64,000 nt of DNA from Bacillota bacterium. Lineage in GTDB: Bacteria > Bacillota > Sulfobacillia > Sulfobacillales > Sulfobacillaceae. Of this stretch, positions 18,087-31,821 are shown piece after piece. Each line of letters begins with the position of its first letter. Position 1 is the stretch's first letter. Location: positions 1-64,000 of the forward strand of contig JAKBWA010000055.1 in the NCBI GenBank assembly GCA_021841025.1, written 5' to 3'. The notes beneath the pieces are model-generated. The model was not told the origin of the DNA, ran no database searches, and saw only the letters and a list, made by a program, of their open reading frames with translations. A program made the position numbers and the translations under genes.

Positions 18087-20063
18087 CTACCGGGTCTCCT
18101 TGAATTTACTTAATTTGCGGTATAGTGTGCTTCGGTGAATGCCGAGACGTTGCGCCGCCCGAGAAATATTGTTGTCACATTCCGCTACGACATGTAAAAT
18201 CCAGTCCATTTCTTGTTGGCGCAACCCCGGTTCTGACGGACCATTTTGGCGTATTTGCGAGACGGCTTCGTGAAAACTCTCGGGGAGATCCTGGGTGGTA
18301 ATAACGGGAGATTGGTGTGATTGAGCCATAATGCGCTCGGCCACATTGCGGATCTCGCGCACGTTTCCTTTCCAAGGGTAATTATTGAAGACCACAGCGA
18401 CCCCAGGAGAAATGGCCGGGGAGAGCCTTCCCGTTTTTTGCGCAATGCGGCTTAAAAAATACTCCAGGATTTTCACAGCGTCCCCCGGACGCTCTCTGAC
18501 CGGGGGAAGAAAAATGGGCAATACGTTTAAGCGATAAAACAAATCACGGCGGAAGGCGCCGTCTTCAACCATCTCTTCCAGATTTTGATTGGTAGCCGCA
18601 ATGACTCTCACTTGAAGATGCATAGACGATTGTGCCCCAATGCGGGTGACCTCGCCCGTATCCAAGACCCGAAGCAGATACGGTTGCAAGGACAATGGCA
18701 ATTCCCCAATTTCATCCAGGAATATGGTTCCTTTGTGAGCCAGCTCAAATTTGCCAGGACGTCCCTCTTTGGCCGCTCCCGTAAACGAGCCGCCCTCGAA
18801 CCCGAACAACTCACTGCCAATAAGTTCATGCGGAATGGCTCCGCAGTTGACGGCAATATACGGGCCTGCGGCCCGGTGAGAGGCACAATGAATGGCCTGC
18901 GCCATAAGTTCTTTGCCTGTCCCGGTTTCCCCCAGCAATAAAACGGGTGAGTCATAACGAGCCGCGGCCCGCCCTTGCTCCACGGCTTGCAGAAATTGGG
19001 GTGCCTCCCCAATTAAGCTGCCAAAGGAGGCCAGGGGCATGGGCGTATCCTCCTTATGATGATTTTTGAGGGCCAGGGTTGAGGGTTTCCCCACCCGGGA
19101 AGCTCCCGCAGGGACGGCTTGGATAAGAGTTCCGATAGGCTGACGCTGCCGGTAACAGCGATGCAACACCCATTTCCACCTGGCATAGGCACCTTGCACT
19201 TCCCACGTGGTTCCATCCTCCATCTGTGAATAATGCGCAGGCAGAAAGCGCAGTTGGTTCTGGTTGTCAATCCACCCTTGATCCCAGGCAGCCGATGAGC
19301 AGCGAATAATTTGACTCCCGCGGTCCAGAGCAATAACAAGCGTGTTAGGGTAACGGGCCGCCAACTCCAAGTATTCTCCAAAGATCATAAACCGCTCCAA
19401 CTCCAATGAATCACGCAACCGGTCTTCGATAGCGCGTGCAATGGACTGCACGACCGCCAGCGAATGCGGATGATGGTACTCCCTGAGCCCGGTGAGATCG
19501 ATAACCCCCAGCACTTTGTGGGTGGCGGGATCGGTGATGGGGGCCGCACTGCATGTCCAAGAATGCACCGGCTGACAGTAATGCTCTGCCGCAAAGATTT
19601 GAACTGCCGTTCCTAAGGACAGGCAAGTGCCAATGGCATTGGTTCCAGCATGGTCTTCCCGCCAACTGGACCCGGGCACAAAGTTCATTTTTTCGGCCGC
19701 TTGACGGATATTGGACTCCCCGGCAATATTCAAAATCAACCCCTCGGCATCAGTAAAAACCACCAAATGCCGCGAAGGCATCATCGTATCGGTCAGAGCA
19801 TGAATATAGGGCACAAGATTTTCGTGCAGAAAGTGATTGGCCCATAACATTTCCACGGCCGATTCGTTGGTCAGCCTTTGGGCTGCCGAGCGTTGTGGGC
19901 TAATGCCCACGTCTTGACAACGCTTCCAGGAATCCACCACAAAACTTCGTCCGATTACGGGATATTGCCCGGAAATAACAAACTGCTTCCAGGTCTGTTC
20001 AGTTTCGTTGATGGCGTGATGGATATTTTTAGGAACACTCCGGACTAATAACTCGCTTCCCAT
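18087..20063 (-). CDS. mimR: Sigma-54-dependent activator, AcoR/MimR type
   Basis: 658 residues. Layout (numbered from the upstream ATG at 20069): an N-terminal sensor region with a GAF-like domain (about 80-225), a central AAA+ domain (about 350-575) with Walker A GETGTGKE near 380-387 and Walker B IFLDE near 449-453, and a C-terminal Fis-type helix-turn-helix (NISRAAQRLGIHRSTLYRKL). The sigma-54 contact loop reads GSFTGA instead of the usual GAFTGA. AcoR-like activators bind upstream DNA and open sigma-54 promoters after sensing a ligand through GAF; MimR does this for mycobacterial mimABCD. It is the last gene of the leftward arm and very probably drives both divergent promoters. The start is the ATG at 20063, seven bases from AGGAGG. 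Confidence 0.88.
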   Translation of the reverse strand: MGSELLVRSVPKNIHHAINETEQTWKQFVISGQYPVIGRSFVVDSWKRCQDVGISPQRSAAQRLTNESAVEMLWANHFLHENLVPYIHALTDTMMPSRHLVVFTDAEGLILNIAGESNIRQAAEKMNFVPGSSWREDHAGTNAIGTCLSLGTAVQIFAAEHYCQPVHSWTCSAAPITDPATHKVLGVIDLTGLREYHHPHSLAVVQSIARAIEDRLRDSLELERFMIFGEYLELAARYPNTLVIALDRGSQIIRCSSAAWDQGWIDNQNQLRFLPAHYSQMEDGTTWEVQGAYARWKWVLHRCYRQRQPIGTLIQAVPAGASRVGKPSTLALKNHHKEDTPMPLASFGSLIGEAPQFLQAVEQGRAAARYDSPVLLLGETGTGKELMAQAIHCASHRAAGPYIAVNCGAIPHELIGSELFGFEGGSFTGAAKEGRPGKFELAHKGTIFLDEIGELPLSLQPYLLRVLDTGEVTRIGAQSSMHLQVRVIAATNQNLEEMVEDGAFRRDLFYRLNVLPIFLPPVRERPGDAVKILEYFLSRIAQKTGRLSPAISPGVAVVFNNYPWKGNVREIRNVAERIMAQSHQSPVITTQDLPESFHEAVSQIRQNGPSEPGLRQQEMDWILHVVAECDNNISRAAQRLGIHRSTLYRKLSKFKETR

Positions 20064-20140
20064 ACTCATTCCTCCTTAGCCCCTAAGCCTAACCCAGCAC
20101 TACACCTGAACTGACATATCCAAAGGACGGCATCTCTTGG

Positions 20141-21775
20141 CTAGTGCATCCCAAGCGCTTCTCCGCCTCCGCCTCGGGCGGGGCCTTGGGTCGGATCGGG
20201 CGCATCCAGAGTGTCACTGATAAGAACCGAGGTGGTGAGAACCATTTTGGCGATTGATAACGCATTGACCAAGGCCTGAATCACGGATGTCACCGAATCC
20301 AAAATGCGTGCCTCACGGAGATCCTCCAATTGCGCATTGAGTGCATTCAACCCTAAATAGGAACCCAAATCGATGTGGGCCAGCACCGTTTCGGGCGACA
20401 GCCCCGAATTTTCCGCCAAGGTCCTCAAGGGCTCCTCTAAGGCACGGCAAAGAATTTGGCGCGCCCATTCTTTGGTGTCTGGACGAGAAGCCAAAGCGAG
20501 GTCTTTGATCTTCATGGCGGCATGGACATAACTGATACCCCCGCCTAACACCACGCCGTCTTGGAGGGCATGCTTGGCTGCGTTAATGGCATCTTCGGCC
20601 CGTTGCAAACGTTCTTTTTGTTCAACAGTGTTAAGCCCTCCGACCAACAAAACCGCAGTGTTTCCGGCCAGACGAGTCAGCCGTTCCTCCAGCTTGTCCC
20701 TTTCAAAGGGCTGTTGCGTGTAAGCAAGTTGTTCGCGGATAGCATTTTGCCGCCCTTGAATGATATCAGGAGATCCGTGCCCATCTGTCATAGTAATGCG
20801 ATCTTGGGTGACAACAACATGCCCGGCGAAGCCCAAATCAGTCCACTCGGCTTCGTCAGGGGATAAGCTCAAATCCCGGGCTAAGAACCGCCCGCCGGTA
20901 AAAATGGCCAAATCCTCCAACGCCATCTTGCGCCAGGGCCCAAATTCCGGCGCTCTAATGGCTGCGATATGGCGCAAGGAGGATTCATTCAGTGCCACAA
21001 TATGAGCCGTCGCTTTTTCGTCATAATCTTCCGCGATGAGAAGAACGTCGTGTCCTTGTTCCACGGCCTGCTCTATCAAAGCATCTAATGTCCCGAAATG
21101 ACTCAACTTTTGGTCGGTGAAAAGAAGGGCAACATCGGTCATTTCGATAGTCATGCTCTTCGGATTGGTAACAAGATGATGAGAGATGTATCCGCGGTCA
21201 AATTGCATACCGCCATGGTACTGAATAGTGTCTGGTCCAAAATGGGGTTCCAGTTCAATATGACTTTCAACCCCTAAGCGAGTCAGGATCTCGGCGACTA
21301 GCTGGCCCAAAGTTTCGTCTCCGGCGGCAATGCGAGCAACGGCTTCCAGAGCATTTTGGCCATCCAGGGCAAAACACTGGGATAAGATGATGTCCTGGAC
21401 GGTTTTCCCCCAGAGTTCCAATTGTCTGGTCAGATCCACCGAGTTAATGCCCTCATCCAAAGCTGGTTGGGCATGCTGGATCAGAGCATCAGCCAAAATC
21501 ATGGAGGTGGTGGTGCCGTCACCTGCCACTTCATTCGTTTGAAAGGCCGCCTCACGAGCCAATTGTATACCCATATTCTGAAATCGGTCCAAGACTTCGA
21601 TTTCGTTGGCAATACTAATGCCGTCGTTCGATACCGCCGGTTTGCCAATCAACCGGTCCATCACGGCCAATTTTCCTTTAGGGCCCAAGGTGCCGCGCAC
21701 GGCTAGGGACAAGATATGGACACCCTGGGCCAGTGATTGGCGGGCTTCTTCTTCAAATCGCAATAACTTTGGCAT
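20141..21775 (-). CDS. mimG: GroEL-like chaperonin dedicated to the monooxygenase (MimG type)
   Basis: About 544 residues, full GroEL length. The equatorial ATP site is kept: TLGPKGKLAVMD, AGDGTTTS, an AEDA segment matching the catalytic Asp, and VVLGGGISY. The sequence is well diverged from housekeeping GroEL, and the usual GGM-repeat tail is replaced by GGGGEALGMH. A chaperonin of this kind is needed for folding of the hydroxylase large subunit in mycobacterial mimABCD systems, and the gene order here matches. The ATG at 21775 has AAGGAG eight bases upstream. No groES lies nearby, so it would borrow the genomic one or act alone. Confidence 0.88.
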   Translation of the reverse strand: MPKLLRFEEEARQSLAQGVHILSLAVRGTLGPKGKLAVMDRLIGKPAVSNDGISIANEIEVLDRFQNMGIQLAREAAFQTNEVAGDGTTTSMILADALIQHAQPALDEGINSVDLTRQLELWGKTVQDIILSQCFALDGQNALEAVARIAAGDETLGQLVAEILTRLGVESHIELEPHFGPDTIQYHGGMQFDRGYISHHLVTNPKSMTIEMTDVALLFTDQKLSHFGTLDALIEQAVEQGHDVLLIAEDYDEKATAHIVALNESSLRHIAAIRAPEFGPWRKMALEDLAIFTGGRFLARDLSLSPDEAEWTDLGFAGHVVVTQDRITMTDGHGSPDIIQGRQNAIREQLAYTQQPFERDKLEERLTRLAGNTAVLLVGGLNTVEQKERLQRAEDAINAAKHALQDGVVLGGGISYVHAAMKIKDLALASRPDTKEWARQILCRALEEPLRTLAENSGLSPETVLAHIDLGSYLGLNALNAQLEDLREARILDSVTSVIQALVNALSIAKMVLTTSVLISDTLDAPDPTQGPARGGGGEALGMH

Positions 21776-21826
21776 CCCCAAAACTCCTTCCTATCCTGTC
21801 CTGTTTCTGTTCCAGAAGCCCAGGGC

Positions 21827-22858
21827 TTAGGGCACGAGCACCGCTCGCCCCATGATTTCTCCTTGCTCCAGCATAGCCATGACGCGTGGCGCATCTTGCA
21901 GAGGGAATTGGCGGGCCGTGATGATCACCTTGCCTTGGCGGTTTAATTCCATCAGTTCCGCCAATTCATTGTAGGTGCCCACCAAATTGCCCACGATATT
22001 GATTTCACGATTGACAAAATCCAAGGTCGGCACATTAACACGGCCGCCATATCCCACCACCGAATAAGTGCCTCCTTTGGCTAGCATTTCAATGGCACTT
22101 TGAGGAGTTTGGTGTTCACCCACGAAATCGATCACAATATCGACACCGTCTTTAGCAATGCTCCGGACTCCCTGAACGCCTCCGTCCGGTCCGGCTAATA
22201 CGCTATAGTGCGCACCGATTTCTTCAGCGAATTGGAGACGGTTTTTTTGGGTATCCACAGCAATGAGGGTAGCCGGTGTGAGAGCCTGGAGAATTTGGAT
22301 GGCAAAATGCCCGAGACCTCCAATCCCGATAATCACAATACGGGTGCCCGGCACACTCCACGGCACTAACTTTTTGATGGCATGATAAGCCGTGATGCCG
22401 GCGTCGGCAAAGGGAGCAAGAGGAAGGGGATCGGTGCCTGGGGCTAATGGCACTACCGAGCGGACAGAGGTTTTCAGATACTCGGCATAGCCGCCATCGG
22501 TGCCGTCCAAACCCGGAAAATGCCCGTTGACACAATACATATCGCGCCCCTGGCGGCACGCTGCACAAATTCCACAAGACATCAAGGGATGCAATATCAC
22601 AGGATCTCCTTTTTTCAGGTGAGTTGCGTTTTTGCCCACGCTCTCGACCCAACCGGCATTTTCATGGCCAATCGTATAGGGCAAAGAAGGATTGCCTAAA
22701 GCGTCTTTCCAAATGCCGTCGACAATATGCAAGTCGGTGCGGCAGACTCCGGCCCCGGCAATTTTTACAATGACATCGGTATCCGCACCGATTTCAGGCG
22801 GATCAATCTCATCGACGGTTATGGGCTCATGATAGGCGTGAATACGTCCAGCTTTCAT
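21827..22858 (-). CDS. adh: Zinc-dependent alcohol dehydrogenase
   Basis: About 343 residues, medium-chain dehydrogenase. The catalytic zinc region GVCRTDLHIVDG and GHENAGWVESVG are present, as is the structural-zinc loop with four cysteines (CGICAACRQGRDMYC), and the Rossmann motif GIGGLG binds NAD. In propane and propanol pathways this enzyme oxidises the alcohol made by the monooxygenase (2-propanol to acetone, or 1-propanol to propanal). It sits between the DUF59 and chaperonin genes in the leftward arm, with short gaps. The start is one of two adjacent ATG codons, with GGGGAGG upstream. Confidence 0.88.
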   Translation of the reverse strand: MKAGRIHAYHEPITVDEIDPPEIGADTDVIVKIAGAGVCRTDLHIVDGIWKDALGNPSLPYTIGHENAGWVESVGKNATHLKKGDPVILHPLMSCGICAACRQGRDMYCVNGHFPGLDGTDGGYAEYLKTSVRSVVPLAPGTDPLPLAPFADAGITAYHAIKKLVPWSVPGTRIVIIGIGGLGHFAIQILQALTPATLIAVDTQKNRLQFAEEIGAHYSVLAGPDGGVQGVRSIAKDGVDIVIDFVGEHQTPQSAIEMLAKGGTYSVVGYGGRVNVPTLDFVNREINIVGNLVGTYNELAELMELNRQGKVIITARQFPLQDAPRVMAMLEQGEIMGRAVLVP

Positions 22859-22920
22859 CATTTAACCTCCCCAAAAGAATAGTCTTGCGGCCCGTGAACC
22901 GGCCGTGTTGTGAATACCCG

Positions 22921-23661
22921 CTAATGCGAATCCACCAAAGGTAAAGAATAACCCGGGTCTTGGCGGGGATAACGCACGGCAAGGAGCCCTTGGCAGATAT
23001 GGGCATTGGATTCCATATTCAGGGCAACCAGCCGCAGAATATGAGAATGACGCCCCCACAACTCTGGGCTAATCGCCCTCCCCGAGATGTCCACGATCAC
23101 CGCATCATTATCACCGCATCCCACTTTCCAATATTGCGCCATCTCCTCATAACGCTCCAGCAGTTGTTGACCCGGAGCAGGCGCTTGAAGGATTTGGCGC
23201 ACTTCCTGCCATGTCCCCGGTGTCCACGAAGACATATTGAGACCCTGGGTCTGAAGATAGTCCAAAACCCGCTTCTGCCGGGAATAAAACGCCTTTTCCT
23301 TGAATACACGGCGCACACTTTCCAAATCTCCCGTCGATTCCGAAAATATTTGGGAAAATGACTGATGGCGGGCAATGCCTTGATTGAGTTTCTCTTGGCT
23401 TTCGTGATCAATAAGCGTAATGCGCGCCGATTTAACCCACGGCAATGCCATTAAAGCGTCGTCCAAATCTTTCATCATCATAAACGAGAAATTAGGCGAG
23501 CACCAATAGGTCGGCAACCGCAAGGTGACGGCAACATCTGTGTCTGATACCTCGAGACAGGCGACAAAGTTGAGTTCGTGAATGGACCGGTCCAATTCCG
23601 GATCATAGACATGATCTAGAACATGCCAAATTTCTTTAATTCGAGCCTCTTGCGTATACAT
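22921..23661 (-). CDS. DUF59/MIP18-type iron-sulfur assembly protein
   Basis: About 246 residues. Residues 5-90 form the DUF59 domain: VLDHVYDPELDRSIHELNFV, then VAVTLRLPTYWCSPNFSFMM, whose cysteine matches the conserved Cys of PaaD/SufT-type proteins. The C-terminal 150 residues are not a family I know. A DUF59 protein is part of the known mim/prm gene set in mycobacteria, placed between the amidohydrolase and the alcohol dehydrogenase as here. It probably helps build or insert the reductase iron-sulfur cluster or the di-iron centre; that role is inferred. Confidence 0.8.
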   Translation of the reverse strand: MYTQEARIKEIWHVLDHVYDPELDRSIHELNFVACLEVSDTDVAVTLRLPTYWCSPNFSFMMMKDLDDALMALPWVKSARITLIDHESQEKLNQGIARHQSFSQIFSESTGDLESVRRVFKEKAFYSRQKRVLDYLQTQGLNMSSWTPGTWQEVRQILQAPAPGQQLLERYEEMAQYWKVGCGDNDAVIVDISGRAISPELWGRHSHILRLVALNMESNAHICQGLLAVRYPRQDPGYSLPLVDSH

Positions 23662-23678
23662 CACGCACACAACCTTTC

Positions 23679-24710
23679 TTAACCTGCTTGACGGGTTTTT
23701 TGGCTGATGACATCATGGCGCAGTTGGGACAGGCGGGAAGGCACGTCAATCTCATAAAGACGCGCGGCATTCGTCCCCAGAATTTTTTTCTTAATCTCGC
23801 GTGTCAGCTGGACACCCGTTTCCTGACGGATGTCATCCGGCAATTCAAAACTCATGAACTGATCGATAAGCCACCGAGGCTGCCATAAGGCGTAATCACT
23901 GCCAAACACAATGCGGTCTTCATTAAGCCAATACAAAAGCTCGCTGATAATTTGGGCAAAGTAGCGGGGTCTGGTGTGAATGAAAGCGTTAGCGACGGCC
24001 AGACCGGCATAGACGTTGGGCTCTTGAGTGGCAATCCAGCAAAATTGCTCCAGACGGGGCAATCCCACATGCTCCACAATAAAGTTCAGATCCGGAAAAG
24101 TACTGGCGGCGTCATCGATGTCGGAGACATCGAAGGCATCCATGTTCAATGGTTTAATGGTGGGGCCTTTGTGAACATGAATGTTGCGAATGCCCACTTG
24201 CAGGCACTTAGCCAAATATCTTTGCGCCCAAGCATCCGACAACCGGTATCCTTTCGAGTCTCCATGCCATTCGGCGGTATAGAGCTTAACCCCTCGGAGA
24301 TGATACGTTTTTGCCCACTCTTCCAGACGCTCCAGACCCTCCTCACCATCACGGGGGTCAAAATATCCATTGCCAATCAGCCGGCCCGGATATTGCTCGG
24401 CTAAGGCAAAGTTTTTGGCGACGTTGCCAAAAGGTTCCTTATAGAAGTCCGTTAAGCCGACCGGTTGAAAAATCGCCACGTCAACATACCCCGTTTCGAA
24501 CACGTCATGAATGAAGGTCTCTTGATCGTATCGGAGAAATTTGTCATGGGGCCAGAGCCACTCCTGGGGACTCAAGTTGCGGTGATAATCATAAAAGCAG
24601 TCAATAAATTCCTGGCCGTGACGATTCTTTTGGTTGGCTGTACTGCCATCCCACAACGCGACATGACCATCAACCACAAAAATTTCCTCACCGTCTGTTG
24701 TCTTGTACAT
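23679..24710 (-). CDS. Amidohydrolase-family protein of the monooxygenase cluster
   Basis: 343 residues, amidohydrolase 2 (TIM-barrel) family and the first gene of the leftward operon. Conserved blocks are GVKLYTAEWHGDSKGYRL, HVHKGPT (metal His), IVEHVGLPRLEQFCW (metal His) and FGSDYALWQPRW (catalytic Asp). The N-terminal metal motif, usually HxH, reads DGHVALWD, so the second His is missing. The protein accompanies mimABCD-type enzymes in actinobacteria and is thought to help make active hydroxylase, but its reaction is unknown. AGGAGG lies seven bases before the ATG. Controlled by the sigma-54 promoter at 24833-24849. Confidence 0.85.
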   Translation of the reverse strand: MYKTTDGEEIFVVDGHVALWDGSTANQKNRHGQEFIDCFYDYHRNLSPQEWLWPHDKFLRYDQETFIHDVFETGYVDVAIFQPVGLTDFYKEPFGNVAKNFALAEQYPGRLIGNGYFDPRDGEEGLERLEEWAKTYHLRGVKLYTAEWHGDSKGYRLSDAWAQRYLAKCLQVGIRNIHVHKGPTIKPLNMDAFDVSDIDDAASTFPDLNFIVEHVGLPRLEQFCWIATQEPNVYAGLAVANAFIHTRPRYFAQIISELLYWLNEDRIVFGSDYALWQPRWLIDQFMSFELPDDIRQETGVQLTREIKKKILGTNAARLYEIDVPSRLSQLRHDVISQKTRQAG

Positions 24711-24832: not shown

Positions 24833-24849
24833 AGCATTTTTGGTGCCAA
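24833..24849 (-). promoter_or_regulatory. Sigma-54 promoter of the leftward arm
   Basis: The minus strand reads TTGGCACCAAAAATGCT. It has the invariant GG and GC with exactly ten bases between them and TGGCAC in full, matching the -24/-12 consensus. Transcription would start near 24822, about 112 bp upstream of the amidohydrolase. It is almost identical to the promoter at 25220-25236. Confidence 0.8.
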
Positions 24850-24942
24850 CATTCTGTCTCGATCTGATTCGTCTATCTTCCAAGGGTCAGCCGACCTTTT
24901 CCGTTTCCATGGGTCTATGGTTTGTTGCAGATTTCTTGGAGC

Positions 24943-24957
24943 GTTGCATATTGCAAC
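24943..24957. promoter_or_regulatory. Activator-binding inverted repeat 1
   Basis: Perfect inverted repeat GTTGCA-TAT-TGCAAC, 94 bp upstream of the leftward -24/-12 promoter. A further half-site GTTGC sits at 24924. It shares GTTGC/GCAAC half-sites with the repeat at 25117-25139, so both probably bind the same activator. Confidence 0.6.
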
Positions 24958-25116
24958 AAAAGTAACAAAATTCTATTTACTATCTTACAACGAAGTTTAG
25001 GTGTTCTGAGGGAGCTCGTTTGAATCATCTGCCATTATTTTTTGGTAAAGTTTAAATTTGTGAATAGTCGTCCTATTATGTCGTTTTAAAACCCTTGAGA
25101 CCACTCGGGTCAAGCG

Positions 25117-25139
25117 AGATGTTGCAAAACGCAACATCT
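25117..25139. promoter_or_regulatory. Activator-binding inverted repeat 2
   Basis: Perfect inverted repeat AGATGTTGC-AAAAC-GCAACATCT, 81 bp upstream of the rightward -24/-12 promoter, the usual distance for an enhancer-like site of a sigma-54 activator. Confidence 0.65.
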
Positions 25140-25219
25140 AAATCCCTTGCGCAACAATCCCGAGACCATCCCCCCTTAAAATACCCTTGAAACACGGCGG
25201 TGTGAGCCAATTGGAGCAA

Positions 25220-25236
25220 CTGGCACCAAACATGCT
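25220..25236 (+). promoter_or_regulatory. Sigma-54 promoter of mimABCD-rpoN
   Basis: CTGGCACCAAACATGCT matches the -24/-12 consensus, with GG and GC ten bases apart. Transcription would start near 25248, giving a leader of about 147 bases before the hydroxylase gene. Confidence 0.8.
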
Positions 25237-25394
25237 GCATATAGGGGATAAGAGCGTAACGACGTTCTTCATCCGTGTTGATAGGCGGATGCATAGCCGA
25301 AAGTTGTGATCCTGACCCATGAGCACAGAAGGATTGGGTCAAATTGAAAAAGCATTTCGGGAAGGACCTATAAGGATCTAAAGGAGGGTGCATC

Positions 25395-27053
25395 ATGGCA
25401 ACGCCGTTATCGAAAATTACCGCACAAAAGGGCATTAGCCTGGCTGAAGCAACGAGGCGGATTGCGGATTTGGGGTGGCTGCCCACATACGCGCAGCAGT
25501 CATTAAAATATCCGACCGACTACAAATTCTCGAAAGCGCCCAAAGACCCGATGAAGCAAGTACTCCGGTCATATTTTCCCATGCAGGAAGAGAAGGATAA
25601 CCGCGTCTATGGAGCCTTGGACGCTGGACTTAGGGGGAATATGTTCCGCAATGTGGAACCCCGGTGGATCGAGTGGATGAAATTGTTTTTGGCGATCATC
25701 CCGTTTCCCGAAATTTCCGCGGCCCGCTCAATGGCCATTGAAGCCAATGTGGTGCCCGGACATGATCTCAGAACCGGATACACCCTGCAAATGATTGACG
25801 AGATGCGGCACTCCACCATTCAAATGAACCTAAAGAAATGGTATATGGAGAATTACGTCGATCCCTCAGGATTTGATATTACCGAGGCGGCATTTGGCAA
25901 GTGCTATGCCACGACGATCGGCAGGCAGTTTGGCGAAGGCTTTATCACCGGAGATGCTATTACCGCGACCAACATCTATTTGCAAGTCGTAGCCGAAACG
26001 GCCTTTACCAATACCCTCTTCGTGGCAATGCCATCAGAGGCCGCAAGCAACGGCGACTACGCCTTGCCCACCGTCTTCTTATCCGTGCAATCCGATGAGT
26101 CCCGGCATATTGGCAACGGGCACTCCACATTAATGTCGGTCTTAAACGATCCCGACAACCACCTGTTGCTGGAACGCGATATCCGCTATGCATTTTGGCA
26201 AAATCACGCCATTGTCGATGCCGCAATTGGCACGATCATTGAATACGGGACCAAAGACCGCCGCAAGGACAAAGAATCGTATGCGGAATTGTGGCAGCGG
26301 TGGATCTTCGATGACTACTACCGCAGTTACCTCCTGCCGTTGGAAAAGTACGGGCTGAAGATTCATCATGACGATGTGCAAGCGGCGTGGGACAGGATCA
26401 TCAAGAAAGACTATGTTCATTACGTCGCACAGTTCTTCTCCGCAGGATGGCCCGTGAACTTTTGGCGCATTGATCCCTTGGATGAACGGGACTTCGAATG
26501 GTTTGAATACAAATATCCCGGATGGTACAACAAATTCGGCGCGTGGTGGGAAAACTACCGAGCGCTTTCCAAACCGGGGAGCACCCCCGTCGTCTTTGCC
26601 GATACCGGCTATGTCTATCCCCACCGGTGCTGGAGTTGCTTGGTTCCTTGTCTGATTCGGGAGGACATGGTGGTCGATGAAGTTGATGGGCAGCTGTATA
26701 CCTATTGTTCCGAACAATGCCGCTGGACTCATAAAGTGGCTTTCGCCAGCGAATATCAGGGACGTCCAACGCCGGCGATGGGAAGATTCAGCGGGCGCCG
26801 ACAGTGGGAGGAAGTCTATCACGGCTGGGATCTGGCCGACATTATTCAAGACTTGGGATTTGTCCGTTCTGACGGCAAAACCTTAATTCCCCAACCCCAT
26901 TTGGAGTTTGACGATGCCCAAATGTGGACTTTAGACCATGTTCGGGGTTATGAATTGCGCAGTCCTCTTATTGATCTCCGCAATATGAACCCCGAACAAA
27001 GACAAAAGCACATTGATCAATATCGCCAAGGCTTTAGTGTGCACAAGATTTAA
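25395..27053 (+). CDS. mimA: Propane-type di-iron monooxygenase, hydroxylase large subunit
   Basis: 552 residues, the alpha subunit of a soluble di-iron monooxygenase. All six iron ligands are present with the same spacing as in methane monooxygenase MmoX: Glu106 (PEISAARSM), Glu136 and His139 (DEMRH), Glu201 (VVAETAFT), Glu235 and His238 (DESRH). Thr205 matches the conserved active-site Thr (MmoX 213), and Gln143 occupies the position of MmoX Cys151. A CWSCLVPC motif lies in the C-terminal half. The gene order (large subunit, reductase, small subunit, coupling protein) is that of propane monooxygenases PrmABCD/MimABCD, which hydroxylate propane mostly at C2 and also attack phenol or acetone. 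The exact substrate cannot be read from sequence. AAGGAGG precedes the ATG. Confidence 0.92.
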   Translation: MATPLSKITAQKGISLAEATRRIADLGWLPTYAQQSLKYPTDYKFSKAPKDPMKQVLRSYFPMQEEKDNRVYGALDAGLRGNMFRNVEPRWIEWMKLFLAIIPFPEISAARSMAIEANVVPGHDLRTGYTLQMIDEMRHSTIQMNLKKWYMENYVDPSGFDITEAAFGKCYATTIGRQFGEGFITGDAITATNIYLQVVAETAFTNTLFVAMPSEAASNGDYALPTVFLSVQSDESRHIGNGHSTLMSVLNDPDNHLLLERDIRYAFWQNHAIVDAAIGTIIEYGTKDRRKDKESYAELWQRWIFDDYYRSYLLPLEKYGLKIHHDDVQAAWDRIIKKDYVHYVAQFFSAGWPVNFWRIDPLDERDFEWFEYKYPGWYNKFGAWWENYRALSKPGSTPVVFADTGYVYPHRCWSCLVPCLIREDMVVDEVDGQLYTYCSEQCRWTHKVAFASEYQGRPTPAMGRFSGRRQWEEVYHGWDLADIIQDLGFVRSDGKTLIPQPHLEFDDAQMWTLDHVRGYELRSPLIDLRNMNPEQRQKHIDQYRQGFSVHKI

Positions 27054-27119
27054 AATATTGCTCCCGGGGCTGCTCGTCCCAGGAGGCCATGGCGTACGTA
27101 TTGGGGAGGGTTGAAGGTT

Positions 27120-28181
27120 ATGGCGTATACGGTGCGACTCGAACCGGTGGGCATCGAGATGGAAGTGGACGAAGGCGAGAGTGTGCTCAAGGCCGCGTTT
27201 CGGCAGGGGATTATGCTCATGCATGGATGCAAAGAGGGGCAGTGCGCGAGCTGCAAATCCATTCTGCTTGACGGGGATATTGACTTGCTGCAGCATTCCA
27301 CCTTCGCACTGCCAGATTACGAACAAGAACAGAATTACATTCTTTTGTGTCGGACGATACCTTACAGTGATGTGAGTATTGAATTGCTCAATTACGACGA
27401 GGAAATCCTGAAATTTGCCATTCCCGTTAAAGAATATGCCGCCACCGTCACGGGGATTGAGACGTTAACACATGACATGCGTCTATTGCGTGTACACTTA
27501 ACCGATCCTCAGGGCTTGCGGTTTTTTGCCGGGCAATATGTGGATTTAAGTTTGCCTGAGTTTGGTGTAAGCCGGTCGTATTCAATGGCCAACACGCCAT
27601 CTTCGTCCCAGGACTTGGAGTTTATCATCAAAGTGTATCCCGGGGGAGCATTTTCTCAAGCGTTGAATGAACGGATTAAACCGGGTGATCCGATTAAGGT
27701 GACAGGACCTTATGGCATTTGCTGCCGGCGGGACAATGATAGCCTGGTGATTTTGGCCGGCGGCGGATCGGGCATGGCCCCTTTGCTTTCTATCTTCTAC
27801 GACCTGTTGGAAAATCATATTGACCGCCCCGTGCGCTTCTTTTACGGCGCGAGAACTCCGGATGATCTGTTTTATGTGGACAGGATTTTGGAGGCGGGAA
27901 AAACTCTCCGGGATTTTCAATTTGTGCCCGCTTTATCCCATCTCCCAGATGGACAATTGTGGGACGGAGACAGGGGATTTATCCACGAGGTTGTCAACCG
28001 GCACTTAGAGAGGACTCAAGACGCGGCAGCCGACGCCTATGTCTGCGGTCCTCCCCCCCTTATCGATGCCATCGTCCCCATCTTGCGGATGAAGGGTCTC
28101 GATGCAGATCGCATCTACTTTGACAAGTTTTATCAGGCTTCTCCTCTGCTATCTCCCATTAACCAAAGGAGTGATCAATAA
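27120..28181 (+). CDS. mimB: Monooxygenase reductase (2Fe-2S, FAD, NADH)
   Basis: About 353 residues in three domains. An N-terminal plant-type ferredoxin has cluster ligands Cys37, Cys42, Cys45 and Cys77. The FAD-binding domain has RSYSMANTP near 152-160, and the NAD domain has GGGSGMAP near 214-221. It moves electrons from NADH through FAD and the 2Fe-2S cluster to the di-iron site of the hydroxylase. The ATG at 27120 follows GGGGAGGG; a TTG three codons earlier is possible. Its stop overlaps the next ATG by one base. Confidence 0.92.
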   Translation: MAYTVRLEPVGIEMEVDEGESVLKAAFRQGIMLMHGCKEGQCASCKSILLDGDIDLLQHSTFALPDYEQEQNYILLCRTIPYSDVSIELLNYDEEILKFAIPVKEYAATVTGIETLTHDMRLLRVHLTDPQGLRFFAGQYVDLSLPEFGVSRSYSMANTPSSSQDLEFIIKVYPGGAFSQALNERIKPGDPIKVTGPYGICCRRDNDSLVILAGGGSGMAPLLSIFYDLLENHIDRPVRFFYGARTPDDLFYVDRILEAGKTLRDFQFVPALSHLPDGQLWDGDRGFIHEVVNRHLERTQDAAADAYVCGPPPLIDAIVPILRMKGLDADRIYFDKFYQASPLLSPINQRSDQ

Positions 28182-29257
28182 TGGCCACGACATTCAACAA
28201 ATCCGCAGCGGCCGGCGCGAAAAAATTTGCCGACTGGGATTCCCGGCATTACCGCTACTATAAACCCAAAGGACGCAAGGCGACTCTCTATGAGGACGTG
28301 ACGGTCGATGTCCAGCCGGATCCCAACCGTTATTTACTGCAGGGATGGATTATATCCTTCGCAGATGGCATTCCCGCCTACTCTCCCACCCGCACGCGCC
28401 TGAATTGCAGCGACTGGCACTTTTACAGAGCCCCTGACGAAGAATGGGAACGGCCGCACTACCAACGCCAGTCGGCTATTGTGAAGATGATTGGTCAAGC
28501 CGTAGCCAATGCTCGCCAGCAAAAAGCCGTTAGCAACTTTGATCCCGACTGGGTCCATATTTTGCAAGATCATGTGAGTGCGTCCAAGCACGCCGAATAT
28601 GGATTAGGCACAGCGCTTATGAGCGCCCAGCGCGACGGCATGACCCAGATGATCAATAATTCGATCTTAACCAACGCGTCCTACAAACTCCGCTATTCTC
28701 AGGATTTGACCCTGTATTTCGCCGATATTGCTCCCGATTTTTCCCAAACGTTTGATGAATCGGCCGGAAAGGAGCACTGGCTAAACGACCCGATTTGGCA
28801 GCCGACCAGAAAATTGGTGGAAACGGTATTGGCCACGGCCGATCACTTGGAGCAATATTTTGCCATCAATGTCCTCATTGAACCGTTGGTACTGGAGCTG
28901 TTCCGCAGTGGATTTGTCATGCAACTGGCCGCTTTGCATGGAGATTTTCTCACACCGACCGTGATCTCAGCCGCGGAAGCTGACTATTCCCGGAACATGG
29001 TCAACACCATTTCACTCATGCAGATTTTGGCGGACGACGAGAAATTCTCTCAGCAAAACCAAAAGGTAATGACAGAGTGGCTACGCCGTTGGTGGCCGTT
29101 GGCCACTGAGGCAGCTCAGCACCTGCAGCCTATTTGGTCATTGCCTCGGGTCAAGGCGCGTGGGTTTGCGGATGCCATGAAGAATGCCGAGAACCACGTC
29201 CAGCAAATCTTGCGCCAGATCGGCGTTGATTTTGAGGAGGGAGGAGAGCATTCATGA
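28181..29257 (+). CDS. mimC: Propane-type di-iron monooxygenase, hydroxylase small subunit
   Basis: 358 residues, the beta subunit of the hydroxylase. It has the ferritin-like helical fold without iron ligands and stabilises the alpha subunit in an alpha2-beta2 enzyme. DWHFYRAPDEEWERPHYQRQ and QDHVSASKHAEYGLG are typical of the family. TAATG overlap with the reductase gene and an ATGA overlap with the coupling protein indicate translational coupling. Confidence 0.9.
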   Translation: MATTFNKSAAAGAKKFADWDSRHYRYYKPKGRKATLYEDVTVDVQPDPNRYLLQGWIISFADGIPAYSPTRTRLNCSDWHFYRAPDEEWERPHYQRQSAIVKMIGQAVANARQQKAVSNFDPDWVHILQDHVSASKHAEYGLGTALMSAQRDGMTQMINNSILTNASYKLRYSQDLTLYFADIAPDFSQTFDESAGKEHWLNDPIWQPTRKLVETVLATADHLEQYFAINVLIEPLVLELFRSGFVMQLAALHGDFLTPTVISAAEADYSRNMVNTISLMQILADDEKFSQQNQKVMTEWLRRWWPLATEAAQHLQPIWSLPRVKARGFADAMKNAENHVQQILRQIGVDFEEGGEHS

Positions 29258-29595
29258 GTGCGCGACAGGATAATCTGAAACGGGAAATTTCCACCAAATG
29301 CGGCGTGACCTTAAATGACAGTGTCGAAGGCCGGGTCATAGCCGAGGTGATGGCCCAAAAACCCGGGGTGGTCGTGAAGTATTATCCGGCCATGATTCGT
29401 ATTGACGGAGAAGGACGCCTCGAATTCGACATGACCGAATTCAGTGAGGCCCTAGGCTATGAATTAACCCCGTTCCTCTTCGAAGTCGAGACATCAACCC
29501 ATTACGGGCGGATGGTGCGTTTCGATGACAAAGTCGTACTGTTCGGACGATTGGAAGATGCCCTACAATACGAAGAAGAAGAAGCTGACAAATAA
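29254..29595 (+). CDS. mimD: Monooxygenase coupling (effector) protein
   Basis: 113 residues, the cofactor-less regulatory protein of the MmoB/DmpM group that docks on the hydroxylase and couples electron flow to substrate oxidation. It contains the family pattern of a conserved N-terminal SVEGRVIAEVMAQKPGVVVKYYP and a closing GRLEDALQYEEE. It starts within the stop of the small-subunit gene and is followed 48 bp later by rpoN. Confidence 0.88.
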   Translation: MSARQDNLKREISTKCGVTLNDSVEGRVIAEVMAQKPGVVVKYYPAMIRIDGEGRLEFDMTEFSEALGYELTPFLFEVETSTHYGRMVRFDDKVVLFGRLEDALQYEEEEADK

Positions 29596-29643: not shown

Positions 29644-30981
29644 ATGCTCAATCACCAACTTGAAGACCGCTTGAATCAATCCCAGAATCTGGCGATGACG
29701 CCCCAGATGGTGGTGTCATTGAAGGTGCTGGCGTTGTCCGGACCGGATTTGGCCTCTTATTTGCAAGAACTCTTGCTGGACAATCCGGTTGTGGAATTGA
29801 CCCACCCGGATTACGCAAGGGCCTTGGACTACTCGGGTATCACCTGGGCCAAAAACGCGGCCAAGGACCCCACAGACATTGCCGATCCTCAAAATCACGA
29901 TCTGTACAGCTATGTTGAAGAACAGATCAGACTCATGCTTCCTCTAGGAAATTGCCGGCAATATGCTTTGTTTATTGCCGGCAACTTGAATCCGGATGGC
30001 TATTTGCGCATGAGTACCCGAGAATTGGCCCAGGCCATCAAGGTCAGTGAGGCGGATTTATTTCCGGCGCTAAGAGTTGTCCAACAGTGTGATCCTGCAG
30101 GAATCGGAGCCAGGTCCTTGCAGGAATGTTTATATTTACAAGCCTTAAGACGCTTTGGCGCATCACACCTGCTCACCCAAATTCTCCAGGACCACTGGGA
30201 CGCTTTGAAATCCCCTTCGCCGTCCCGACTGGCCAAGACACTGAAACTGACGAACCAAAGAGCCTTGGAGATATTGCAAGATTTACGGCTTTTGCAACCT
30301 AAACCAGGGGCTGCCTTTGGTCCAGGGGCTCCCGTTATGACGGGATATCCCGATATTCAGATGTCATGCCGTCCAAAAGGCGAGGTAGCCGTCGAAGTGC
30401 TTAAGGATTCGCAACCCTCACTCTCTTATGTCCCGGAATATAAACGCTTGAGCAAAACGGCACAAGACCCGGCGGTGACGGATTTCCTGGCGCAGTCCCT
30501 AAAACAAGCCCGGTGGGTCCAAAAAGCCTTGCGAGAACGGCAGAGCACCTTGCAGACGGTGGGATCCTTGATGGTGGTCCGGCAAAGAGGTTATTGTTGC
30601 CAAAATGAGCCGTTATTGCCCCTCACGGTTAAAGAGATGTCACAGACTCTGGGATTTCATGAATCCACCATCAGGCGAGCGATAGCGGACAAAATCTTGA
30701 TCTGTCCCCGGGGATTTTTGCCCTTGTCTAGTCTTTTGTGCGAGCCTGCCACCTTCGACCATAGCGTGTCCGTGGCAATGATCAAAGACTGTATCCAGTG
30801 CATGATACGAGGAGAAGATCCCGCTCATCCCCTCTCAGATGCGGCAATAGCTCATCAACTAGAAAAAAGAGGAGTGTGGGTTGCCCGGCGCACCGTCGCG
30901 AAATATCGCCAGGAATTGGGTTTGCTTGCCGCCCACCAGCGCCGGCAACAAAGAGACTTGGGATGGCGGCAGCCGAAGTAA
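29644..30981 (+). CDS. rpoN: RNA polymerase sigma-54 factor
   Basis: 445 residues. Region I is Gln/Leu-rich (LNQSQNLAMTPQMVVSLKVL), the acidic linker is short, the core-binding region includes LNPDGYLR and CDPAGIGARSLQECL, and the C terminus carries the RpoN box ARRTVAKYR at 414-422, the signature that reads the -24 element. All parts needed for function are present. It lies 48 bp after the coupling protein gene with no terminator between, so it is transcribed from its own type of promoter together with the enzyme, giving potential positive feedback. The ribosome binding site (AAGGGGCC) is modest. A sigma-54 gene placed inside a catabolic operon is unusual. Confidence 0.93.
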   Translation: MLNHQLEDRLNQSQNLAMTPQMVVSLKVLALSGPDLASYLQELLLDNPVVELTHPDYARALDYSGITWAKNAAKDPTDIADPQNHDLYSYVEEQIRLMLPLGNCRQYALFIAGNLNPDGYLRMSTRELAQAIKVSEADLFPALRVVQQCDPAGIGARSLQECLYLQALRRFGASHLLTQILQDHWDALKSPSPSRLAKTLKLTNQRALEILQDLRLLQPKPGAAFGPGAPVMTGYPDIQMSCRPKGEVAVEVLKDSQPSLSYVPEYKRLSKTAQDPAVTDFLAQSLKQARWVQKALRERQSTLQTVGSLMVVRQRGYCCQNEPLLPLTVKEMSQTLGFHESTIRRAIADKILICPRGFLPLSSLLCEPATFDHSVSVAMIKDCIQCMIRGEDPAHPLSDAAIAHQLEKRGVWVARRTVAKYRQELGLLAAHQRRQQRDLGWRQPK

Positions 30982-31060
30982 TGCAGCTTTCGTCATATGA
31001 ACGCCCACACAACTTTCCTAAGAATCTCCTGAAATTTGGCAAAGAAACCGCCGCCTAAAC

Positions 31061-31132
31061 GTGCCTGGTTAGACGGCGAAAGTTCATTAACGAAGCACAA
31101 GGGGTGGAAAGGCTGTTGGCTGGAAACACCCC
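31061..31132 (+). other. Possible structured RNA leader
   Basis: Two consecutive stems can form before the beta-helix gene: GTGC (31061) with GCAC (31095), enclosing GTTA/TAAC, and GGGGTG (31101) with CACCCC (31127), enclosing a GGCTG repeat. It does not match any riboswitch I can recall, and chance is possible. Confidence 0.25.
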
Positions 31133-31176
31133 GGCGGGGATCCAACCTAGGAAAAACGTTTTGGTCAAAGGGAGGC

Positions 31177-31821
31177 ATGATGAAAGACGAGATGGAGATT
31201 TACGATTTCGGTGACGGACAAGGGTCTGTTTTAGCCCGCCGCCATGAAAATGGCGGAGGTTTGGTGGCGGCCACAGCGCACGTTGAGCCGTCTGCTTTTG
31301 TGGATGAATTCGCGGCCGTGTTTGGACAAGCGGTGGTACGCGGTGTGGCCAAATTGCTGGATCGTGCGCGAGTGGGCGGTCATGCCACCGTAGAGGAACT
31401 CGCGACTGTCAGAGAACAAGCCTTAATAGAAGGATCCAGCCATGTGTACGGTTCAGCTCAAGTATCCGGATCTGCACGCTGTGACGAGTTTTCCCAAGTG
31501 GGAGGGAATGCGCGCATATTTGATCAAGCCCAGATATCGGGGCATAGCCTGATCGCTGATAACGCCTGGGTTTATGGCCAGGCGCAGGTGAAGGATTATG
31601 CCAAAGTAAGGGGCACGGCCCGCGTAAGTGGAAGTAGTGTCATCACAGGACAGGCAGTGGTCAGTGGATATGTCAAGATTGATGACAACGCCCTGGTCGA
31701 GGAGAACAGCGTAGTCGCCGGAAACTGCTCACTCAAAGGCAATGTCCGCATTACCGGCCACGCCGAAGTCATCGGTTTTGTGGAGATTGACCACGGTGTG
31801 GTGAATGATCACAGGGAATAG
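31177..31821 (+). CDS. Repeat protein with predicted left-handed beta-helix
   Basis: About 214 residues made almost wholly of short repeats of the form [A/S]-x-V-x-[G/D]-x-A, each about 6-8 residues (VGGHATV, VYGSAQVSGSARC, VRGTARVSGSSVITG). This is the spacing of hexapeptide or YdcK-type beta-helix proteins, which stack into a triangular prism. Some are acetyltransferases, but I see no transferase motif, and many are structural or anti-freeze-like scaffolds. The start is one of two adjacent ATG codons (31177/31180), directly after GGGAGGC. It lies 195 bp after rpoN on the same strand and may belong to its transcript. Confidence 0.65.
   Translation: MMKDEMEIYDFGDGQGSVLARRHENGGGLVAATAHVEPSAFVDEFAAVFGQAVVRGVAKLLDRARVGGHATVEELATVREQALIEGSSHVYGSAQVSGSARCDEFSQVGGNARIFDQAQISGHSLIADNAWVYGQAQVKDYAKVRGTARVSGSSVITGQAVVSGYVKIDDNALVEENSVVAGNCSLKGNVRITGHAEVIGFVEIDHGVVNDHRE

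Follow-up and report, generated by a model that had tools for sequence, protein, structure and literature searches.

A putative self-contained sigma-54 switch at the centre of a propane-monooxygenase-like gene cluster in Sulfobacillaceae

Gene content of the two arms

The window, i.e. the whole stretch of 64,000 nucleotides analyzed in this work, carries a module made of two gene arms that point away from a common intergenic region. The right arm (+ strand) starts with prmA (25395..27053; PF02332, 192 bits), encoding the large subunit of a diiron hydroxylase, followed by prmB (27111..28181), encoding a FAD/2Fe-2S reductase (PF00970, PF00175 and PF00111), prmC (28181..29257; PF02332, 237 bits), encoding the hydroxylase small subunit, and prmD (29254..29595; PF02406), encoding the coupling protein. 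This order (large subunit, reductase, small subunit, coupling protein) is the one of group 5 SDIMO (prm/mim) clusters. PrmA is ~74-80% identical to the products of genes carried by proteobacterial plasmids, and its closest solved structures are sMMO hydroxylases (241 bits). Gene order and plasmid relatives identify the predicted enzyme as a propane-monooxygenase-like one. Since PrmD scores 126.6 bits against the curated MimD model (NF045941), whose cut-off is 150, the cluster is referred to here as prm-like and not as MimABCD.

The enzyme genes are followed, after a gap of 48 bp, by rpoN (29644..30981, + strand), which encodes sigma-54. Its product harbors the three expected domains (PF00309, PF04963 and PF04552) above their cut-offs, scores 316 bits against TIGR02395 (cut-off 277) and has an intact RpoN box (ARRTVAKYR). 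Downstream of rpoN, a gene for a YdcK-like beta-helix protein with sub-threshold Pfam matches (31036..31821, + strand) was found; a related protein also adjoins rpoN in all five other copies of the module that were checked (one near-identical, four at 49-55% identity).

The left arm (- strand) successively encodes an Amidohydro_2 protein (23679..24710; PF04909), a FeS_assembly_P (MIP18-like) protein (22921..23670; PF01883), a zinc-type alcohol dehydrogenase (21827..22861; PF08240 and PF00107), a GroEL-like chaperonin (20141..21781; PF00118, and NF009487 with 511 bits) and, after a gap of 71 bp, a sigma-54 activator (18087..20069; PF00158, PF01590 and PF02954). The latter combines a GAF domain, an AAA+ domain (PF00158, 222.9 bits, and 226 bits in the search of the genome) whose GAFTGA-type loop is the variant GSFTGA, and a Fis-type HTH. 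The same variant is found in four of the five other module activators of Sulfobacillaceae.

The window belongs to a genome of 3.39 Mb. Our search found a single sigma-54 gene (the module rpoN) and a single strong PF00158 activator (the one of the module), although a second copy of either could be missed, since this genome is 97% complete and split into 118 contigs. Four other PF00158 matches were rejected as activators, as they score 34-54 bits and have no GAFTGA-type motif. The first-pass annotation had proposed that one activator and one sigma factor control both arms; this proposal is supported, as the only ones found in the genome are both encoded by the module. Since they sit within this cluster, the entire switch seems to be devoted to one pathway.

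Promoters and inverted repeats of the intergenic region

The intergenic region carries two -24/-12 sites on opposite strands: (i) TGGCACCAAACATGCT (25221-25236, + strand), facing the enzyme and rpoN arm, and (ii) TGGCACCAAAAATGCT (24833-24848, - strand), facing the accessory and activator arm. As the first-pass annotation had stated, they face outward, enzyme genes lying on the right and accessory genes on the left, differ by a single base and both have the GG-N10-GC spacing. They are separated by 372 bp and match the TGGCAC...TGCW consensus at 10 of the 10 scored positions. The pattern TGGCACNNNNNNTGCW has only these two exact matches in the window, compared to 0.38 expected, and two matches were reached in nine of 100 shuffles of the window. 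Over the whole genome, it has 24 matches compared to 14 for a reversed-pattern control, and the motif by itself is therefore little proof: taken alone, it occurs near chance frequency, with an only marginal excess in the window.

Comparison of module copies is far more informative. Both promoters were found in correct orientation in all seven distinct copies (the one of the window and those of six relatives), with 8-10 of the 10 scored positions, as well as in an eighth, near-identical copy. The alignment shows that they were kept while most of the other intergenic DNA diverged. In shuffled intergenic regions, sites with at least eight of the 10 positions, GG and GC being required, arise on both strands with a probability of 0.006-0.05 per locus; these values are not independent, since the loci share ancestry, and should not be multiplied. 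The recurrence of both correctly oriented sites in the seven distinct copies indicates that the promoter pair goes beyond chance.

Inverted repeats that the first-pass annotation did not mention are located upstream of each promoter. They have the structure TGTTGC-N5-GCAACA and, in the alignment, form two mirrored conserved blocks, each made of a half-site (TGTTGCA) and, ~20 bp farther from the promoter, the palindrome. For the left promoter, the probable activator site (24922..24958, - strand) includes the half-site TTGTTGCA (24922-24929) and the palindrome TGTTGCAATATGCAACG (24942-24958, - strand), whose center is 103 bp from the GG. The probable site of the right promoter (25120..25156, + strand) includes the palindrome TGTTGCAAAACGCAACA (25120-25136, + strand), whose center is 94 bp from the GG, and the half-site GCAACA (25151-25156). 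Both distances lie inside the ~80-200 bp expected for activator sites. Considering all module copies, the palindrome center is located 93-116 bp from the -24 GG in 13 of the 14 arms, the exception being the right arm of one locus (L063), which has no strong palindrome. A strict pattern joining half-site and palindrome missed most loci because their spacing varies. The core GTTGC-N5-GCAAC has three occurrences genome-wide, including two at this locus. Given these repeats, the conserved blocks and their spacing, the elements are most simply read as predicted binding sites of the activator, one set per promoter. With 178 bp between the two palindromes, cross-activation would also be possible.

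These data bear on the proposal that both 16-mers match by chance, or are relics, and that the arms are read from ordinary sigma-A promoters. The near-chance frequency of the motif and the presence of some sigma-70-like matches in the intergenic region would fit it. However, these matches are not more numerous than in shuffles, and the sites were kept with their spaced palindromes in seven diverged copies, together with rpoN and the activator gene, which makes this proposal very improbable. Hence, we keep the two sites as predicted sigma-54 promoters.

Two other features of the window were considered. The ~150-nt leader upstream of prmA includes the sequence GACCCA...TGGGTC (25316-25342), a possible hairpin whose conservation in the other loci is not obvious. 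The Rfam scan of the window gave no match.

Distribution and origin of the module rpoN gene

Among the 34 genomes of the family, seven (G000, G001, G006, G007, G011, G014 and G026) carry a prm-type module as well as rpoN, and the 27 others carry neither. The gene rpoN directly follows prmD in G000, G001, G011, G014 and both copies of G006, and also in G026, where it is cut by the end of the contig. The two complete modules of G006 (L059 and L060) each have their own activator and their own rpoN, whose products are ~49% identical. In the 61%-complete assembly of G007, the contig carrying the module stops within prmA, and the single rpoN found is located elsewhere. This rpoN is very divergent and overlaps the gene of its own AcoR-type activator (L061 6865-9914), both adjoining a gene encoding an acyl-CoA synthetase; this pair is a second kind of pathway-bound sigma-54 unit. 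One further genome (G023) encodes a distant diiron monooxygenase of another type and has no rpoN. In G008, a strong activator domain was found in a fragment located at a contig edge (L126, G008:C87:33-536), whereas neither rpoN nor a diiron monooxygenase was found; this fragment is the trace of a lost or unassembled module.

At the scale of the order, 33 of the 42 genomes have no strong activator and only seven have an rpoN match above the family cut-off, activators tracking rpoN nearly 1:1. In G041, which belongs to the same order but not to the family, the only rpoN and the only activator gene adjoin a gene encoding a luciferase-like monooxygenase (L064 9400-14387). A -24/-12 site with nine of the 10 positions (TGGCATGGCGCATGCA, L064 12253-12268, - strand) is located just before this gene.

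The distribution should be considered together with the possibility that sigma-54 is not dedicated but serves other genes through weaker sites, the module merely holding its gene. Besides the 24 matches to the strict pattern, the genome has nine matches to a relaxed one, including seven outside this locus; five of these are inside long open frames and two are not. Degenerate further targets may also exist. However, sigma-54 requires an activator and only one was found, and no palindrome above 9/12 was found in the 300 bp preceding any of the seven relaxed matches. Furthermore, relatives devoid of rpoN also have 0-6 relaxed matches each, and the family genomes that do not carry the module do not carry rpoN either. 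We thus regard a non-dedicated sigma-54 as unlikely, and a factor bound to its module as the better reading.

In the phylogenetic tree, the six module RpoN proteins of Sulfobacillaceae form one clade (95/87) that joins the G041 protein (98/95), while the three module RpoN proteins of Rhodobacterales fall among alphaproteobacterial RpoN. The tree thus leads us to reject a common origin of the module genes of Sulfobacillus and Rhodobacterales, and these separate positions indicate that rpoN joined the prm-type cluster at least twice. The protein of G011, which belongs to another genus, groups with the one of the window before that of G001, which belongs to the same genus (99/86); this would be compatible with a transfer of the module as a unit. 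A near-identical rpoN, the only match in the contig scan for this gene, was found in Sulfobacillus benefaciens AMDSBA1, which places the window in Sulfobacillus. Sigma-54 may either have come with the module or be a remnant retained only where a client exists. From one copy to another, module sigma-54 proteins are 41-49% identical, which ranks among the lowest identities of the module. An unusually relaxed evolution was considered but not retained, since domain identities are only slightly below those observed between RpoN of different families of the class.

Proposed circuit and comparison with known systems

Taken together, these results suggest that the region is very probably the control center of a self-contained sigma-54 switch for the propane-monooxygenase-like enzyme. 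In the proposed circuit, polymerase carrying the sigma-54 of the module would wait at both outward promoters. An inducer, which is probably a short-chain alkane or the corresponding alcohol, would reach the GAF domain of the activator, which would then assemble on the inverted repeats located ~95-105 bp behind each promoter. DNA would loop, and ATP hydrolysis through the GSFTGA loop would open both promoters. The right transcript would give the hydroxylase, the reductase, the coupling protein and more sigma-54, and the left one the alcohol dehydrogenase, the GroEL-like chaperonin, the maturation proteins and more activator. As rpoN and the activator gene are inside the two arms, the loop would reinforce itself, with this locus as its only client. 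We infer DNA binding, inducer, co-transcription, feedback and exclusivity from comparative evidence.

Neither a terminator-like site nor a sigma-70-like hexamer pair was found in the prmD-rpoN and GroEL-activator gaps; sigma-54 and the activator are therefore probably produced from the very promoters that they serve. A self-dependent loop nevertheless needs basal expression, as for rpoN2 of Mesorhizobium loti and Rhizobium etli (PMC3538637). It is thus conceivable, though we give it clearly less weight, that the promoters and enhancers are real but that rpoN and the activator gene are mainly expressed at a constant level from separate sigma-A-type promoters, the inducer alone switching the arms without any closed loop. 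Some sigma-54-independent expression of rpoN is needed to start the system, R. etli rpoN2 is preceded by a weak separate promoter (PMC3538637), and gaps of 48 and 71 bp leave room for such a promoter. However, the result obtained for these gaps argues against it, as does the absence of any excess of sigma-70-like pairs in the region. We rather favor, as the somewhat more probable view, that sigma-54 is in this order a pathway part and not a global factor: it would have a single client, go with one activator and a single pair of operons, and be encoded in the operon that it transcribes, which would make a closed and possibly bistable switch. The other rpoN genes found in the order (those of G041 and G007) likewise adjoin a single activator gene and a different pathway.

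The usual view of sigma-54 is that of a global factor working with many activators. In the present case, it appears together with a single activator and a single pathway only, and this would provide a minimal circuit (one sigma, one activator, two promoters and two enhancers) that can be studied with every part mapped. Such a circuit would account for the functioning of an alkane-oxidation cluster that depends on sigma-54, and that has close proteobacterial relatives, in an order from which sigma-54 is nearly absent; the module would also offer a compact expression cassette. The promoters themselves are ordinary; the interest lies in the putative self-contained, single-client circuit that they belong to.

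Several known systems share parts of this organization. In Methylosinus trichosporium OB3b and other methanotrophs, the sMMO is RpoN-dependent: inactivation of rpoN abolishes its expression, and a -24/-12 promoter (YTGGCACGrNNNTTGCW) precedes mmoX (PMC5874634). The sMMO system (RpoN/MmoR/MmoG) and the present module have in common a diiron monooxygenase operon, a -24/-12 promoter, a sigma-54 activator and an adjacent GroEL homologue. However, the former encodes a six-gene methane enzyme in Proteobacteria, whereas the latter encodes a prm-type enzyme made from four genes in the order of Sulfobacillus and has two divergent promoters that each have their own putative activator site. The module also carries the only rpoN found in its genome inside the operon, a position given here for the module alone. 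The butane monooxygenase system of Thauera butanivorans (BmoR/BmoG) also associates a sigma-54 promoter, an alcohol-responsive activator, an upstream activator site and a GroEL homologue (PMC8784404, PMC8899819), elements that have predicted counterparts here. It differs by its single promoter with an activator site 193 bp upstream, compared to two mirrored promoter-enhancer units (~95-105 bp) in the module, and no rpoN is described as part of its cluster.

The prm-type clusters carried by plasmids of Azospirillum, Methylocella, Caballeronia, Bradyrhizobium, Gemmobacter, Paracoccus and Ponticoccus have the same enzyme genes, and most of these proteobacterial clusters share with the module the genes encoding the chaperonin, the amidohydrolase, the FeS_assembly_P protein and an AcoR-type activator. 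A -24/-12 site with 9-10 of the 10 positions precedes prmA in 10 of the 11 proteobacterial plasmids carrying a related cluster. Three plasmids of Rhodobacterales also have rpoN near the prm cluster, but these genes have an alphaproteobacterial ancestry and are not part of the enzyme operon, while those of Sulfobacillus form a separate clade. The AcoR-type regulators encoded near the rpoN-bearing clusters of Gemmobacter (L097 2602-4371) and Ponticoccus (L102 1058-3007) have no ELFG...GAFTGA motif and thus may not activate sigma-54 in the usual way.

Accessory rpoN genes serving one function on a mobile element are also known from the symbiosis islands of M. loti and R. etli, where the rpoN2 promoter requires NifA and sigma-54 (PMC3538637). 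However, these hosts possess a housekeeping rpoN1 as well, and NifA has many targets in them, whereas here a single sigma-54 and two known promoters were found. Non-interchangeable rpoN copies are known in Rhodobacter sphaeroides, as cited in PMC3162934. In none of the systems found for comparison do the only sigma-54 and the only activator of a genome belong to a module for one pathway, the arms of which are separated by two mirrored promoter-enhancer units. In the literature searched, which covers few subscription journals, no report linked Sulfobacillus to propane monooxygenase or described the module sigma-54. Diiron monooxygenase operons that are driven by sigma-54 and accompanied by an activator and a GroEL homologue were thus already known, as was a dedicated, self-dependent rpoN in rhizobia. 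The difference here is a genome-unique, pathway-bound sigma-54 encoded inside the operon that it would transcribe, in an order almost devoid of sigma-54.
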